From the NCBI GenBank assembly GCA_949282845.1, contig CASDQF010000025.1, positions 1-46,141 on the forward strand: a stretch of 46,141 nt of DNA, given 5' to 3'. Position 1 is the first letter of the stretch, and every line of letters starts with the position of its first letter. The DNA is from an uncultured Alphaproteobacteria bacterium. Its GTDB lineage: Bacteria > Pseudomonadota > Alphaproteobacteria > CAAHEQ01 > UBA3637. The notes beneath the pieces were generated by a model, which did no database searches, was not told where the DNA came from, and saw only the letters and a program-made list of their open reading frames with translations. Below, in pieces: positions 1-46,141 of the stretch. A program made the position numbers and the translations under genes.

Positions 1-1367
1 ATGATGATTGTGGCTGTATAGCGGGCTGTGTAGAGAAGTGTCCAGGTTTAGTTTGTAATGAAGAATGCACTATACCGAACTATGAGACCTGCAGTTGTGA
101 ATATGATACAAGTTGCTGTCCAGAGTTTAATGGGTGTGAGGGTTGTACGGAAGAGACGGTCGATGAGAATGGTTGTCCGATTTGTAGTGAAGACAAGACG
201 ATAACAGTTTTTGGCGGTTCGTGTTGTTTAGATGAGGTGACATGTTGTCCGTTGACGGATGGAGGATGTACACCGAGTTGTACGCCTTCTGAGGATTGTG
301 ATGAATGTAGTGATGGTTATTTAGTAGAAGTAGCTTTATCAGAAGGCAATACGATAATAGGGACTGGTGGCGGTACTGTTGTGACGGACGGGGCGATATA
401 TTGTTGTTTGAATTCATCGATGGCCGGTTGTGGTGCGTGTTATCCAGTATATTATGTACCTGGGGAGATGACGGGGAATTGTGAAGGCTGTCCGGCAGGT
501 TTATATGAATCGAATAATGGGTTATGGATAGATTGTGTTGAGTGCACGGAAGATGGTCATTGTGATCCGAATAATTGCATTACATGCCAACGGAATAAGT
601 GTTCATTGAAGTGTGAAGCAGGCGAGACCTGTAATGGGAAAGGGGAGTGTTGTTCTGATGGTGTTGGGAATGATGGAGAATGTTGTCCTGCTTTGACAGA
701 TCCAGATTGTGAGACAGAAACAGATGAGAATGGTTGCACAGTGTGTAAGACCTCTTGTCCAGATGAAACACCTGTTCCTTGCTCTTTAAATGGAGAAAGT
801 TGGTGTTGCGCCGAAGGTAATACGTGCGGTTCTATGGTCGGAGAGTGTTGCTTGAATGGTGTTTGCTGCCCTGAAGGACAAAATGCTTATTACGGAACAT
901 ATTATACTACTGATGGATATAGTATTGACTATGGAGTAAAAAAATATTATGGAAATGCTTCTACAAAAACATTCTGTTGTTCAAACGATCCATCTGCAAG
1001 TGGTCAAGAACAAGTCTGTTGTGATATAGGACAAGTAGAACTATATAACTATAAATACGGTACTCCCGATTATGATTACAAATCTTATGCTTGTAGAGGG
1101 CAAGAATATTGTGATCAATTTAATCCTGGTTCAACCTGGACTCATGAGCTTCATGCTGATTTGAGGACGAAGAATGGCGGTTTTTTTAAAGAAGATGTGT
1201 ATGGTTGTGTTACATCTGATTATAAAAGAATCTCTTTATCTGAATTTTATTGTCCCTCAGATTCTGATTTTTATACAAAATGTGAAGGATGGTCATATGC
1301 TTATTGTTATTACTTTGAACCTGCAGGAGGAGAGATTTGTGATACACCACAATCCCCTCATTGGTAA
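1..1367 (+). CDS. Cysteine-rich secreted/surface protein, 5' end off window
   Basis: The reading frame is open from base 3 to the TAA at 1365-1367, giving 454 codons with no start in the window, so the gene begins to the left. The first ATG in frame (237) has no convincing ribosome site and lies inside the cysteine-rich repeats, so it is unlikely to be the true start. The protein has many Cys-Cys pairs and spaced cysteines, for example GECCLNGVCCPEGQ, TDENGCTVCKTSC and DENGCPICS. The last third is richer in Tyr, Ser and Asn. Such a pattern is typical of disulfide-bonded extracellular proteins; ligand and function are unknown. The C-terminus has no visible membrane anchor. It resembles in style, but is not clearly homologous to, the cysteine-rich protein at 36376. 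Confidence 0.75.
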   Translation, partial: DDCGCIAGCVEKCPGLVCNEECTIPNYETCSCEYDTSCCPEFNGCEGCTEETVDENGCPICSEDKTITVFGGSCCLDEVTCCPLTDGGCTPSCTPSEDCDECSDGYLVEVALSEGNTIIGTGGGTVVTDGAIYCCLNSSMAGCGACYPVYYVPGEMTGNCEGCPAGLYESNNGLWIDCVECTEDGHCDPNNCITCQRNKCSLKCEAGETCNGKGECCSDGVGNDGECCPALTDPDCETETDENGCTVCKTSCPDETPVPCSLNGESWCCAEGNTCGSMVGECCLNGVCCPEGQNAYYGTYYTTDGYSIDYGVKKYYGNASTKTFCCSNDPSASGQEQVCCDIGQVELYNYKYGTPDYDYKSYACRGQEYCDQFNPGSTWTHELHADLRTKNGGFFKEDVYGCVTSDYKRISLSEFYCPSDSDFYTKCEGWSYAYCYYFEPAGGEICDTPQSPHW

Positions 1368-35326: not shown

Positions 35327-36250
35327 ATGGTGACTAAAAAAAATAAAAAGCCGGTTCAAAAAACAGCTCATCCTTCTGTAGCTGCTCAACCGACGCCGGT
35401 TCAAAAAGAAGAATGCGCTTGCGGTGCTGATTGCAAGTGTGGATGTAATTCAGGATGTAAATGTGAAAAACTATTACCTTTCTTTGGTATGGTTTTAATT
35501 GCTTTATCTGTTATAGCTTCTCCATTTATTCGTCCTTATGCTACAGGTTTTAATAAACCTGCTGCTCCAACAGCAAAAATGACTGAAAATGCTATTCGCG
35601 ATTTCATTAAGGCTAATCCAAAAGTTATTTTAGATTCTGTCAACAGCTATTATCAAAAACAACAAGGAAAACAAGCTGGTAGAAAAGCGCCTCCTAAAAA
35701 AGCAGACAGTAAAATGATTGCTGAAATTTTAGCAGACAAAACAAATACCGTGCTTGGTAATCCAAAAGGAACTTTTGTTATCATTGAATTCTTTGATTAT
35801 CAATGCGGCTATTGCAAAATGATGAATAAGAAGTTAGCCGAAGCGATTAAGAAAAGTGACAACATCCGTTGGGTTTTAATGGATAATCCTATTTTCGGTG
35901 AAAAATCAGAAATAATTGCTCGCTATGCAATGGCAGCAGATAAACAAGGAAAATTTGCTGAGTATCATGAAGCTTTAGGCGAGAATAAGGATATGTCCGA
36001 AACTGGTTTAATTGCTTTAGGTAAAAAGTTAGGATTAAATACAGATAAGTTAACAAAAGATGCTAACTCTAAAGAATTAAAAGATAAGCTTTTAAAAACA
36101 CGTGAATACACGAAAGAATTAAACTTAAGCGGTGTTCCGATGTTTATTATCGATGGCGATGTTCAACCAGGCGCGTTCCAAGACGCTCAATTGGAAGAAT
36201 ACATTAAAAAAGCCAACGATATGAAAAAGACGAAAAAAGCTAAGAAATAA
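35327..36250 (+). CDS. Membrane-anchored DsbA-like thiol oxidoreductase
   Basis: The 307-residue protein has a short N-terminal cytoplasmic region, a membrane helix (about 49-66) and a periplasmic thioredoxin-fold domain. The active site is CGYC (C160/C163) in FFDYQCGYCKMMN, and the cis-Pro loop is SGVPMFIIDG. A helical stretch (about 85-125) precedes it, as in ScsC/Com1-like proteins. The region before the membrane helix has seven cysteines in 17 residues (CACGADCKCGCNSGCKC), unusual for a DsbA and possibly metal-binding. A perfect AAAGGAG precedes the ATG. It could fold or oxidise the cysteine-rich secreted proteins nearby. Confidence 0.85.
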   Translation: MVTKKNKKPVQKTAHPSVAAQPTPVQKEECACGADCKCGCNSGCKCEKLLPFFGMVLIALSVIASPFIRPYATGFNKPAAPTAKMTENAIRDFIKANPKVILDSVNSYYQKQQGKQAGRKAPPKKADSKMIAEILADKTNTVLGNPKGTFVIIEFFDYQCGYCKMMNKKLAEAIKKSDNIRWVLMDNPIFGEKSEIIARYAMAADKQGKFAEYHEALGENKDMSETGLIALGKKLGLNTDKLTKDANSKELKDKLLKTREYTKELNLSGVPMFIIDGDVQPGAFQDAQLEEYIKKANDMKKTKKAKK

Positions 36251-36268
36251 TCGCTTTTAGATATCATG

Positions 36269-36298
36269 AAAAAGCTCCTCAAATGAGGAGCTTTTTTT
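36269..36298 (+). terminator. Intrinsic terminator after the DsbA-like gene
   Basis: AGCTCCTC / GAGGAGCT stem with AAAT loop and a seven-T tail. Confidence 0.9.
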
Positions 36299-36332
36299 AA
36301 AGCTAAAAAAAACATCTAGACAAGTCAACTAT

Positions 36333-36409
36333 AAATTTGTTATGCTTATTTTACAAACGAAATAAGGAGTCTCAGATGTTCATTTCTAACAAAATTACCC
36401 CCCCCCCCC
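36333..36409 (+). repeat. Poly-C leader cassette, copy 1
   Basis: From AAGGAG through the ATG, eight codons and the C12 tract (about 36364-36409) this is identical to the right-edge copy. An AAATTTGTTAT box (36333-36343) occurs upstream of both, at a different spacing, and may be part of the promoter. Confidence 0.85.
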
Positions 36410-37029
36410 ATGTTTTATCTAATCTTTTGATATATTTAATACTTTTCTCCTCTTTTTGCTTAACCGCAAACGCAAAAACAGTTAACCGACAAGCTTATAA
36501 AGTCTGTAAAACGAATGAAGAAGCTTATTGGAATGGCTCTTCCGCTCAATGCTGTGATACAACGACCCATAAACTTGTCAAAAATTATACAAATGGCATT
36601 GGTGAAAACGGTTATGCCTGTTGTCCTGTCCAGGAAAATATAAATGAAAATACCGTTGAAAATGGGGTGGTTCACAGATCTAGTTCCAAAACAGGCTGGA
36701 CTATTGCCGGCGCCACGAATGGTTCTTGCTGTGGCGGATATACCGACAGCTCGGGTTCTGTAACTTACGATGATATTGGTTATCAACAATGGAGCTCAAA
36801 TAGTTACACTTTTAACATTCAAGAAAATGGTGGTGTATATTATTGCGCATCAAACATGACGGACAGCGGTGGCGATAGTGAAGGTGAAGGGTCTTCTTGG
36901 AGTTGGAGCTTTTATTATGCCAGTAATAATAAATACTGTATGGATCAAAGGCCCGCGTATCCACTGATCTGTTATTGTTCAGAGAAAGGAGATCCACAAA
37001 AAGGAACTTGTTGCGAAGGTCCTTGTTAA
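36376..37029 (+). CDS. Phase-variable cysteine-rich secreted protein
   Basis: The 217-residue product starts MFISNKITPPPHVLSN; 12 consecutive C (36398-36409) encode Thr-Pro-Pro-Pro and the first base of His. A signal peptide core (LLIYLILFSSFCL, cleaved near TANA/K) follows. The mature part is rich in Cys, with CC pairs (SAQCCDTT, YACCPVQ, SCCGGY, GTCCEGPC). Loss or gain of one C shifts the frame: 11 C reads PPPMFYLIF then stop, 13 C reads PPPPCFI then stop. Only 12 (or 12 plus/minus 3) gives the full protein, so the tract can switch expression on and off. AAGGAG precedes the ATG. Function unknown; a surface role is likely. Confidence 0.85.
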   Translation: MFISNKITPPPHVLSNLLIYLILFSSFCLTANAKTVNRQAYKVCKTNEEAYWNGSSAQCCDTTTHKLVKNYTNGIGENGYACCPVQENINENTVENGVVHRSSSKTGWTIAGATNGSCCGGYTDSSGSVTYDDIGYQQWSSNSYTFNIQENGGVYYCASNMTDSGGDSEGEGSSWSWSFYYASNNKYCMDQRPAYPLICYCSEKGDPQKGTCCEGPC

Positions 37030-37030
37030 G

Positions 37031-38857
37031 TTATTCTTCGCGGCGACGTTCTGCTTTGCGGCGCTCATTATAATCCAACAACTTTTTACGCAACCGAATG
37101 TTATGTGGTGTCACTTCAACCAACTCATCATCATTAATGTAAGCTAAGCTTTCTTCCAAGCTCATAACAACCGGTGGCGTCAAAAGAATATTATCATCTT
37201 TACCCGCAGCACGCATATTTGTTAGTTTTTTTCCTTTAATCGGATTGACATCAATATCTCCAGGCTTTGCATTCTCTCCAATAATCATCCCGGCATAAAC
37301 CGGCGTATTATGCGTCACAAAAAGCTTTCCTCTGTCTTGGATATTAAACAAGGAATAAGCAACCGCTTTACCTGTTTCCAATGAAATCAAAGCGCCATTA
37401 TGCCGCCCCGGAATTGGCCCCTTATAAGGTCCATACTCACTAAACAAACGGTTCATAATCCCTGTTCCGCAAGTATCTGTTAAAAATTCAGAATGATACC
37501 CGATTAAGCCCCGAGAAGGTGCTTTAAAAATCAAACGTGTCTTACCGGCTCCGGAAGGATGCATCTCCATTAAATCCGCTTTTCGTTCACTCATTTTATT
37601 AACAACAACACCCGAATAAGCGTCATCCACATCCACAACAACTTCTTCATACGGTTCGGTCCGTGTTCCATTTTCATCTACATGGAATAAAACACGTGGA
37701 CGAGAAATAGACAATTCAAAGCCTTCTCGACGCATTGTTTCAATCAAAATACCAAGTTGCAATTCGCCACGTCCAGCAACTTCAAACGAATCTGCGCTGT
37801 CTGTTTTAGCTATTCGCAGAGCAACATTCCCTTCGACTTCTTTTTGCAAACGCTCCCAAATCATCCGAGAAGTGACTTTATCACCATCCTGCCCGGCAAA
37901 AGGAGAAGTGTTTATTGAAAAAGTCATTGCTAATGTCGGTGGGTCTATTGGTTGAGACGGAATAGCTTCCGTAACACTACTATCACATAAAGTATCCGCC
38001 ACCGTCGCTTTAGAAAAACCCGCAACACTGACGATATCTCCTGCGTGAGCTTCTTCCAAGGCTGTCCGTTTTAAACCTCGAAAAGCCATAATCTTAGAAG
38101 CTCGAGCGGTTTCTAATGTTTGCCCATCTCGGGACAAAGCTTTAATCATTGAATTAACTTTCAATGATCCGCTTTCAATACGCCCCGTCAAAATACGTCC
38201 GACAAACGGATCATACTCCAAGGTCGTCACCAACATAGAAAATGGCGCTGTTAAATCACATTTTGGTTCCGGAACATGTGTTAAAATTTTTTCAATCAAT
38301 GGCTTGATGCTCGTTCGAGGATCTTTTTCTAAATCATAAACCGCCCATCCTTCTCGACCTGAAGCATACAAAACAGGAAAATCTAACTGTTCATCTGTTG
38401 CGCCCATATTGGCAAACAAATCAAAAACTTCATTTAATACTTCGTTTGGACGAGCATCAGGACGATCCGCTTTATTGATAACAACAATAGGACGCAAGCC
38501 TAATTTTAAAGCTTTACCGACCACAAATTTTGTCTGGGGTAAAGGTCCTTCCGCAGCATCAACCAACAAAATAACACCGTCTACCATACTTAAAATACGT
38601 TCAACTTCTCCACCAAAATCAGCATGTCCCGGTGTATCCACTATGTTAATCCGCGTATTTTCCCATTCAATAGAAGTACATTTTGCTAAAATTGTAATAC
38701 CACGTTCTCGCTCAATATCTCCGCTATCCATCACACAAGTCGCCACCGCTTGATTATCTCGAAAAGTGCCGCTTTGCTTTAAAAAAGCATCTACAAGAGT
38801 TGTTTTCCCATGGTCAACGTGTGCGATGATCGCAATATTTCGAATAGATTCTGTCAT
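37031..38857 (-). CDS. typA: Ribosome-associated GTPase TypA/BipA
   Basis: The 608-residue translational GTPase has the EF-Tu-like G1 motif IIAHVDHGKTTLVDAF, G3 DTPGHADFGGEVERI and G4 NKADRPDA. Domain II follows, then the EF-G-like domains and the BipA-specific C-terminus (YHSEFLTDTCGTGIMNRLF, KLTNMRAAGKDDNILLTPP). It binds 70S ribosomes and assists assembly under stress. Its 3' end lies one base from the stop of the convergent poly-C gene. Confidence 0.97.
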   Translation of the reverse strand: MTESIRNIAIIAHVDHGKTTLVDAFLKQSGTFRDNQAVATCVMDSGDIERERGITILAKCTSIEWENTRINIVDTPGHADFGGEVERILSMVDGVILLVDAAEGPLPQTKFVVGKALKLGLRPIVVINKADRPDARPNEVLNEVFDLFANMGATDEQLDFPVLYASGREGWAVYDLEKDPRTSIKPLIEKILTHVPEPKCDLTAPFSMLVTTLEYDPFVGRILTGRIESGSLKVNSMIKALSRDGQTLETARASKIMAFRGLKRTALEEAHAGDIVSVAGFSKATVADTLCDSSVTEAIPSQPIDPPTLAMTFSINTSPFAGQDGDKVTSRMIWERLQKEVEGNVALRIAKTDSADSFEVAGRGELQLGILIETMRREGFELSISRPRVLFHVDENGTRTEPYEEVVVDVDDAYSGVVVNKMSERKADLMEMHPSGAGKTRLIFKAPSRGLIGYHSEFLTDTCGTGIMNRLFSEYGPYKGPIPGRHNGALISLETGKAVAYSLFNIQDRGKLFVTHNTPVYAGMIIGENAKPGDIDVNPIKGKKLTNMRAAGKDDNILLTPPVVMSLEESLAYINDDELVEVTPHNIRLRKKLLDYNERRKAERRREE

Positions 38858-39045: not shown

Positions 39046-39672
39046 ATGAAAAAATTACTGTTCACAACTCTGTTTTGGTTAGGAGGATTAACAGGAGCAA
39101 TGGCTGCTGATGATCGTGTTTATCAATATCCTGTTTCAACAAATAATTCTATTTCTGAAACTCAACCAGCTCCCGTTGTCCAAAACAAAGCACAAAAAAC
39201 TAAACGCTTTTATGCCGGTGGACGCCTTGGATATGGTTATACCTCTATCGAACCAAAAGATTTATCTACAGCTGTCGGAGGAGCCATGGTCGGCGTCAAA
39301 GTTGGAGATTTCCGTTTTGAAACGGATGTCACCTATATGGCTCAAACAGAATTGACGCATGACATTAAATACGAACAGTTTACTTTTTTATTAAATGCTT
39401 ATTATGACTTACCTCTTGGAAAGTTCAAACCCTTTATCGGCGTAGGAGCTGGAGCTGCTTATTCTATTGCTACCCGTGAATATAAACGCCATGGATGGAC
39501 ACATGAAGAGCGCTGGGATGACACCAATTGGGCTGTCGCTGCTATGGGCGGTGCTTCATATGACATTACCCCCTCCATAACGGCAGAAGCCATGTTCCGC
39601 TATATTTATGTAGATTTGCATGAAGATGCTTATAATCTTCAAGCAATAGGTGGTGTTCGATATAATTTTTAA
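39046..39672 (+). CDS. Outer-membrane beta-barrel protein (opacity/porin type)
   Basis: The 208-residue product has a signal peptide ending AMAA/D, a short linker and an eight-stranded barrel (AGGRLGYGYTSIEP; KPFIGVGAGAAYSIATREYK; MFRYIYVDL; QAIGGVRYNF). The last residue is Phe, as BAM substrates usually require. GGAG precedes the ATG. It resembles the small OmpA/OmpW-like membrane proteins of alphaproteobacteria; ligand unknown. A candidate -10 TATAAC lies at 39015-39020, but the -35 spacing is short. Confidence 0.85.
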   Translation: MKKLLFTTLFWLGGLTGAMAADDRVYQYPVSTNNSISETQPAPVVQNKAQKTKRFYAGGRLGYGYTSIEPKDLSTAVGGAMVGVKVGDFRFETDVTYMAQTELTHDIKYEQFTFLLNAYYDLPLGKFKPFIGVGAGAAYSIATREYKRHGWTHEERWDDTNWAVAAMGGASYDITPSITAEAMFRYIYVDLHEDAYNLQAIGGVRYNF

Positions 39673-46077: not shown

Positions 46078-46141
46078 AAATTTGTTATAAATAAAAAGGA
46101 GTCTCAGATGTTCATTTCTAACAAAATTACCCCCCCCCCCC
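46078..46141 (+). repeat. Poly-C leader cassette, copy 2
   Basis: AAATTTGTTAT (46078-46088), then AAGGAG and the same leader, ATG and first eight codons as copy 1, and at least 12 C to the window end. Identical over the leader, codons and tract. Confidence 0.9.
46108..46141 (+). CDS. Poly-C leader gene, cut by the right edge
   Basis: The ATG at 46108 begins MFISNKITP, the same as the 36376 gene, followed by the C-tract (46130-46141, continuing past the edge). The rest lies outside the window. Its reading state depends on the unknown tract length, so expression cannot be judged. AAGGAG precedes the ATG. It is the second member of a family sharing the leader. Confidence 0.75.
   Translation, partial: MFISNKITPPP

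Follow-up and report, generated by a model that had tools for sequence, protein, structure and literature searches.

A poly-C tract behind the start codon of a cysteine-rich protein gene, a probable phase-variation switch with counterparts across a family of uncultured Alphaproteobacteria

In Neisseria, the porA and opc genes are switched by homopolymers located within promoter spacers. Tracts of poly-G inside coding sequences cause phase variation of HmbR and HpuA in Neisseria meningitidis (PMC3786947), and phase-variable genes with G/C tracts have been described in Campylobacter jejuni (PMC8355987). Listeria inlA and Bacillus swrA are switched by poly-A at the 5' end of the gene (PMC2831843), and Helicobacter pylori sabA carries repeats in both its promoter and its coding sequence (PMC2715451). 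The variation of badA in Bartonella is attributed to recombination, possibly with slipped-strand mispairing in long repeats, and not to tracts of this kind. Why many-locus phase variation seems restricted to pathogens, and whether or not this reflects database bias, is put forward as a major open question in a 2025 review (PMC11868660).

The window analyzed here, a stretch of 46,141 nucleotides, is contig C25 of a 1.185-Mb draft genome (G000) of an uncultured alphaproteobacterium, assembled in 72 contigs. The following features of the window, all on the forward strand, are relevant:

3..1367, +, large Cys-rich protein cut by the contig start, at least 454 C-terminal aa retained (ORF reading)
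35327..36250, +, DsbA/thioredoxin-like protein directly upstream of the C12 gene (DsbA-type models matched weakly, none reaching cut-off)
36364..36369, +, Shine-Dalgarno (SD) sequence AAGGAG of the putative phase-variable gene (sequence; the order GGAG-ATG-polyC is retained in relatives)
36376..37029, +, gene of a 217-aa Cys-rich secreted protein in its open (ON) frame (ORF, frames, family alignment)
36398-36409, +, C12 tract, the proposed frameshift switch (sequence and frame computation)
36410..36474, +, predicted signal peptide core 3' of C12, LSNLLIYLILFSSFCLTANA (sequence; hydropathy maximum at residues 17-31; helix 11-31 in the structure model)
46096..46141, +, second SD, ATG, leader and C12, an exact match to the first, cut by the contig end (sequence comparison)

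The ATG of the 217-aa gene occupies positions 36376-36378 and is separated by 19 bases from C12, which is held within codons 8-12. A first-pass annotation of this DNA had correctly placed the tract just 3' of the ATG, but it counted seven further codons before the tract, which in fact begins at the second base of codon 8, after the ATG and six codons. In the computed frames, lengths of C9, C12 and C15 give open frames of 216, 217 and 218 aa, and C10, C11, C13 and C14 end after 14, 17, 15 and 18 aa, respectively. These values agree with the annotation, which had the frame open for 217 residues at C12 and a stop within seven or four codons past the tract at 11 C or 13 C. The loss or gain of a single base at C12 truncates the product, as in SSR-mediated translational phase variation, another mark of which is a homopolymer longer than expected by chance inside a coding region. 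The earlier statement that such a run is very unlikely by chance was borne out: C/G runs of at least 12 bases are expected ∼0.0007 times in the 46-kb window and two were seen, while 8-C runs numbered 10 as against 0.38 per dinucleotide shuffle, a count of 10 being reached in 0/100 shuffles. No C runs of 6-11 bases are present in the window, which sets the two C12 runs clearly off from all shorter ones. As CCC makes up only 10.6% of the Pro codons in the long ORFs of the window, codon habit does not account for the purity of the tracts.

The second C12 (46130-46141), which is absent from the first-pass annotation, is preceded by an identical AAGGAGTCTCAGATGTTCATTTCTAACAAAATTA and, together with its SD, constitutes the last 46 bases of the window. 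Contig C43 of the same genome opens just past the tract position with another Cys-rich paralog, which could be the other half of the gene cut off at the 3' end of the window. Since the window starts within the partial large Cys-rich protein, whose C-terminal end resembles by eye the product of the Cys-rich gene of contig C15, both contig ends break in Cys-rich genes.

The 217-aa product contains 15 Cys residues, 14 of them past the predicted signal peptide, and would presumably be located at the cell surface. It matched no Pfam or NCBIfam family. Its structure model (mean pLDDT 81) consists almost entirely of strands after residue 60 and resembles no PDB fold (best Foldseek E 0.23). The DsbA-like neighbor could possibly act as disulphide oxidant for this protein. 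The window also encodes, at 39046-39672, a small outer-membrane beta-barrel-like protein, which matched the model of the Rickettsia adhesin Adr weakly (29 bits, well short of the cut-off).

A profile search gave 11 matches to the Cys-rich family in G000, 28 in G001, 16 in G002 and few in other genomes, so the expansion is essentially genus-level. The paralogs are alike in their 5' part and diverge toward the 3' end, where recurring modules are found. Within G000, contig C39 carries a C12 tract in the ON frame heading a 217-aa Cys-rich paralog, contig C15 a C10 tract out of frame (OFF) with a 204-codon frame of a Cys-rich secreted protein behind it, and contig C6 a C12 tract, also OFF, before a prepilin-like protein with GRSMIEMLGVLVVIGVL. 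The last protein and its relatives possess the prepilin N-terminal G-x-x-x-x-E motif; the matches to N_methyl (E 0.036) and IV_pilin_GFxxxE (E 0.046) were both below cut-off. Tractless Cys-rich paralogs are present on contigs C29, C36, C37 and C39 (at 648) of the same genome. In addition, contig C40 contains at position 1177 (L018) a C14 run in a short ORF without a Pfam match, open at C12 or C15, which is possibly a further switch or a decayed gene.

The recurrence of this arrangement was examined with the pattern GGAG-(4-14)-ATG-(1-30)-non-C-C9, the reversed pattern serving as a control. The pattern was found in 13 of the 43 genomes of the family, representing 5 of its 13 genera, and with a C8 threshold in 3/3 genomes of the genus; the control gave 0 everywhere except in G001 (4). 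The start-codon tracts number as many as 17 in a single genome of the family, and the poly-C10 runs as many as 69. The leaders vary among genera, and the position and purity of the tract are kept. The genes behind the start tracts encode Cys-rich proteins (within the genus) or prepilin-like proteins (in several genera). Like the HmbR/HpuA and C. jejuni systems, these loci combine a G/C tract within the coding sequence, a frame that shifts when one base is gained or lost, surface-related targets and many loci per genome. They differ in belonging to uncultured Alphaproteobacteria, in having prepilin-like proteins and an undescribed Cys-rich family as targets, and in the position of the tract, which is almost always 5' of the signal peptide or of the prepilin core and mostly falls 19-31 bases from the first base of the ATG. 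As in inlA and swrA, the tract lies at the extreme 5' end and an out-of-frame length leads to a short dead peptide; unlike the short poly-A runs of those genes, it is poly-C, mostly of 9-15 bases, in AT-rich genomes.

The frame was determined at 44 loci having an ATG in front of the tract and a confirmed Cys-rich or prepilin motif behind it; three tract-bearing Cys-rich loci without a clean start were left out. Fourteen loci were ON and 30 OFF, a distribution across loci and species rather than within one locus of one species, with 9/18 Cys-rich and 5/26 prepilin-like loci ON, the latter share taken by itself being a point against a switch. If the length changes freely, one third of the loci should be ON, and with a fixed coding tract ∼100%, so 14/44 fits a random frame (binomial P = 1.0 against 1/3; P = 3e-20 against 90% ON, a value that is illustrative because many of the loci are paralogs and not fully independent). 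Among the tracts of at most 10 C, which are more reliable in short reads, one was ON and nine were OFF. Long open frames are kept behind OFF tracts (e.g., 204, 271, 406, 418 and 452 codons), so that across loci and species there are alleles of either state, ON and OFF, and the reading frame persists past the OFF tracts, as in phase variation. The dN/dS ratios behind OFF tracts were 0.47 and 0.27, based on few substitutions. Early stops in the OFF frames were considered as a selected trait and rejected: they came after a mean of 4.0 codons as against 20.9 under a same-gene null, but resampling of synonymous codons took away most of the effect (P = 0.07).

Tract length also differs between close relatives, another property of phase-variable genes. 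The Cys-rich gene of contig C15 (C10) and its ortholog on contig C19 of G002 (C12) share 97% amino acid identity within 2.4 kb of DNA that is 96.7% identical, and both are OFF. In the prepilin ortholog pair of contigs C6 (G000) and C22 (G002), the tract is C12 in both. In G002, contig C17 (ending in C13 plus 115 bases) and contig C26 (starting with C12) overlap by 127 bases, the k-mer size given in the contig name, which hints at coexisting C12 and C13 reads, although noisy reads past the tract could have the same effect. For this reason, contig breaks at tracts were rejected as proof of length variation.

Many further poly-C runs in the relatives are located between genes. Their complementary strand presents TTGAC(A/T), up to nine bases, G10-19 and a TATNNT-like box, i.e., poly-G apparently within the spacer between -35 and -10, as in TTGACAgatgccG11TATCAT with a spacer of 17. 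This pattern was found at 22 places, distributed over 6 genomes, and its reversed form at none; the apparent spacers, judged by consensus match, measure 10-25 as against a spacer near 17. The pattern is absent from the window and its genome. Several of the spacers lie upstream of prepilin-like genes (spacer loci in G009, G001 and G011 include L122, L126, L128, L133, L135, L136, L142, L175 and L176), and at least one upstream of an ankyrin-like protein, identified by eye. The apparent position of poly-G between -35 (TTGACA) and -10, where it would set spacer length, is that of porA and opc; the difference lies in the genes downstream, which are prepilin-like. As with sabA, both levels of SSR control would act on one class of surface protein, but here the two levels are seen on separate genes of a protein family and not together on one gene.

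The proposal of the first-pass annotation that the tract gene is phase-variable is thus supported by the comparison, through the mixture of ON and OFF loci, the promoter-spacer tracts and the C10 and C12 orthologs, the last being the genome-to-genome difference in length that it had named as a check. Judged from sequence, C12 is very probably a slipped-strand ON/OFF contingency switch, one of a family-wide set on surface-protein genes. Slipped-strand mispairing during replication would add or remove C residues between the start codon and the signal peptide; with 9, 12 or 15 C the full Cys-rich secreted protein would be made, and at other lengths translation would end at 14-18 residues. Tracts of the same kind at the head of paralogous Cys-rich and type IV prepilin-like genes would form a family-wide set of switches, and poly-G in the -35/-10 spacer would add a transcriptional switch to prepilin-like genes of the relatives. 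Switching may be ongoing within the population, and its benefit may be bet-hedging toward host, phage or immune system.

The main rival to a phase switch is transcriptional slippage or ribosomal frameshifting at poly-C, by which an in-frame product would be obtained from all alleles and tract length would be near-neutral, tuning the level of expression without ON and OFF states. We consider this unlikely, even though it would likewise yield one third of loci in frame. It leaves unexplained the poly-G in the promoter spacers of the same protein family, which argues that tract length at the DNA level is the regulatory variable, and the tractless Cys-rich genes of contigs C29, C36 and C37 speak against it. 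Known cases of slippage and frameshifting concern A/T runs, a further point against it. In its favor is slippage at poly-A in Buchnera, discussed in PMC2831843. Also in its favor are genomes G063 and G194 (f22, another family of the class; L180-L188), in which nine genes carry an ATG, a leader and C9 before a pilin-like protein (GSITVEAIIMLGLIA): all nine tracts have this one length and are OFF, a result that random switching would hardly lead one to expect. Such uniformity might come from programmed frameshifting, from a recent origin in common or from a start other than the ATG considered here.

An artefact of sequencing or assembly, with homopolymers miscalled and true lengths constant and in frame, is very improbable. 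The genomes are fragmented drafts, several contigs end at or just past tracts, some of them in C-rich junk, and contig C68 of G000 (L009) ends in a low-complexity poly-G tail, probably a two-color Illumina artefact and a warning about homopolymers at contig ends. Against this, many tracts are internal to contigs and flanked by normal sequence 5' and 3', G000 and G002, which were assembled separately, have tracts at orthologous places, and nine of the ten short tracts are OFF. Least credible of all is a fixed Pro-rich leader (Thr-Pro-Pro-Pro) selected in the protein, e.g., for ribosome pausing before export, since, although ITPPP or VTPPP occurs in many members, the tracts are pure C despite the low share of CCC among Pro codons, tractless family members lack PPP and two thirds of the loci are out of frame, an ON/OFF split that already contradicts it.

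Beyond the switch itself, the Cys-rich loci may exchange their tails. In the sister species, G002, the gene directly 3' of the DsbA-like gene is a Cys-rich one that differs in its 3' part, with an RNase E-like gene (by eye) next in order, and the 3' part of the window gene, with TypA, is located on another contig, whose overlapping neighbor has a ParC-like gene (by eye). In this exchanged synteny (window 35327-38857 against L084, L054 and L058), the join falls in the shared 5' segment of the Cys-rich gene, which suggests recombination between Cys-rich loci within that segment; misassembly is a possible alternative. More tentatively, these small-genome Alphaproteobacteria might possess a large phasome, with a single type of homopolymer acting at two levels on the same surface families and with the shared 5' segment as a site of recombination at which divergent tails are reassorted, so that phase and antigenic variation would be combined outside the known pathogens.

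The mechanism is already known from Neisseria, Campylobacter and Helicobacter, and its lineage-wide extent and target families appear to be new. In the open-licence papers searched, SSR phase variation at multiple loci is nowhere described for Alphaproteobacteria, in line with the earlier remark that coding phase variation of this kind seems little described for this class. Many-locus tracts, seen here in draft genomes of an uncultured alphaproteobacterial family without cultures, bear on the question of pathogen restriction raised in the 2025 review, which would become directly testable in metagenomes if reads confirm switching. Tract frames also offer a way to call ON and OFF states of surface proteins per sample in uncultured bacteria.

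No relatives were found in viral contigs. Loss of mismatch repair was rejected as a cause of the tracts, there being no clear link (mutS1 is present in G009 and absent from G001). The mutS1 gene was matched in 40 of the 43 family genomes, including that of the window, where mismatch-repair loss therefore implies no raised slippage rate. Genome G001, 94% complete, is the one with 17 start-codon tracts, the most in the family, and G009 the one with 69 poly-C10 runs.

Finally, in genomes G217 and G312 of another family of the class (L189-L196), tracts of C13-C20 are located a few codons past the ATG, four of them ON and four OFF. Several of these genes encode lipoprotein-like products (LLRLTLIAFSLTLLVACGGGG), and the tracts apparently represent a separate use of the same switch.
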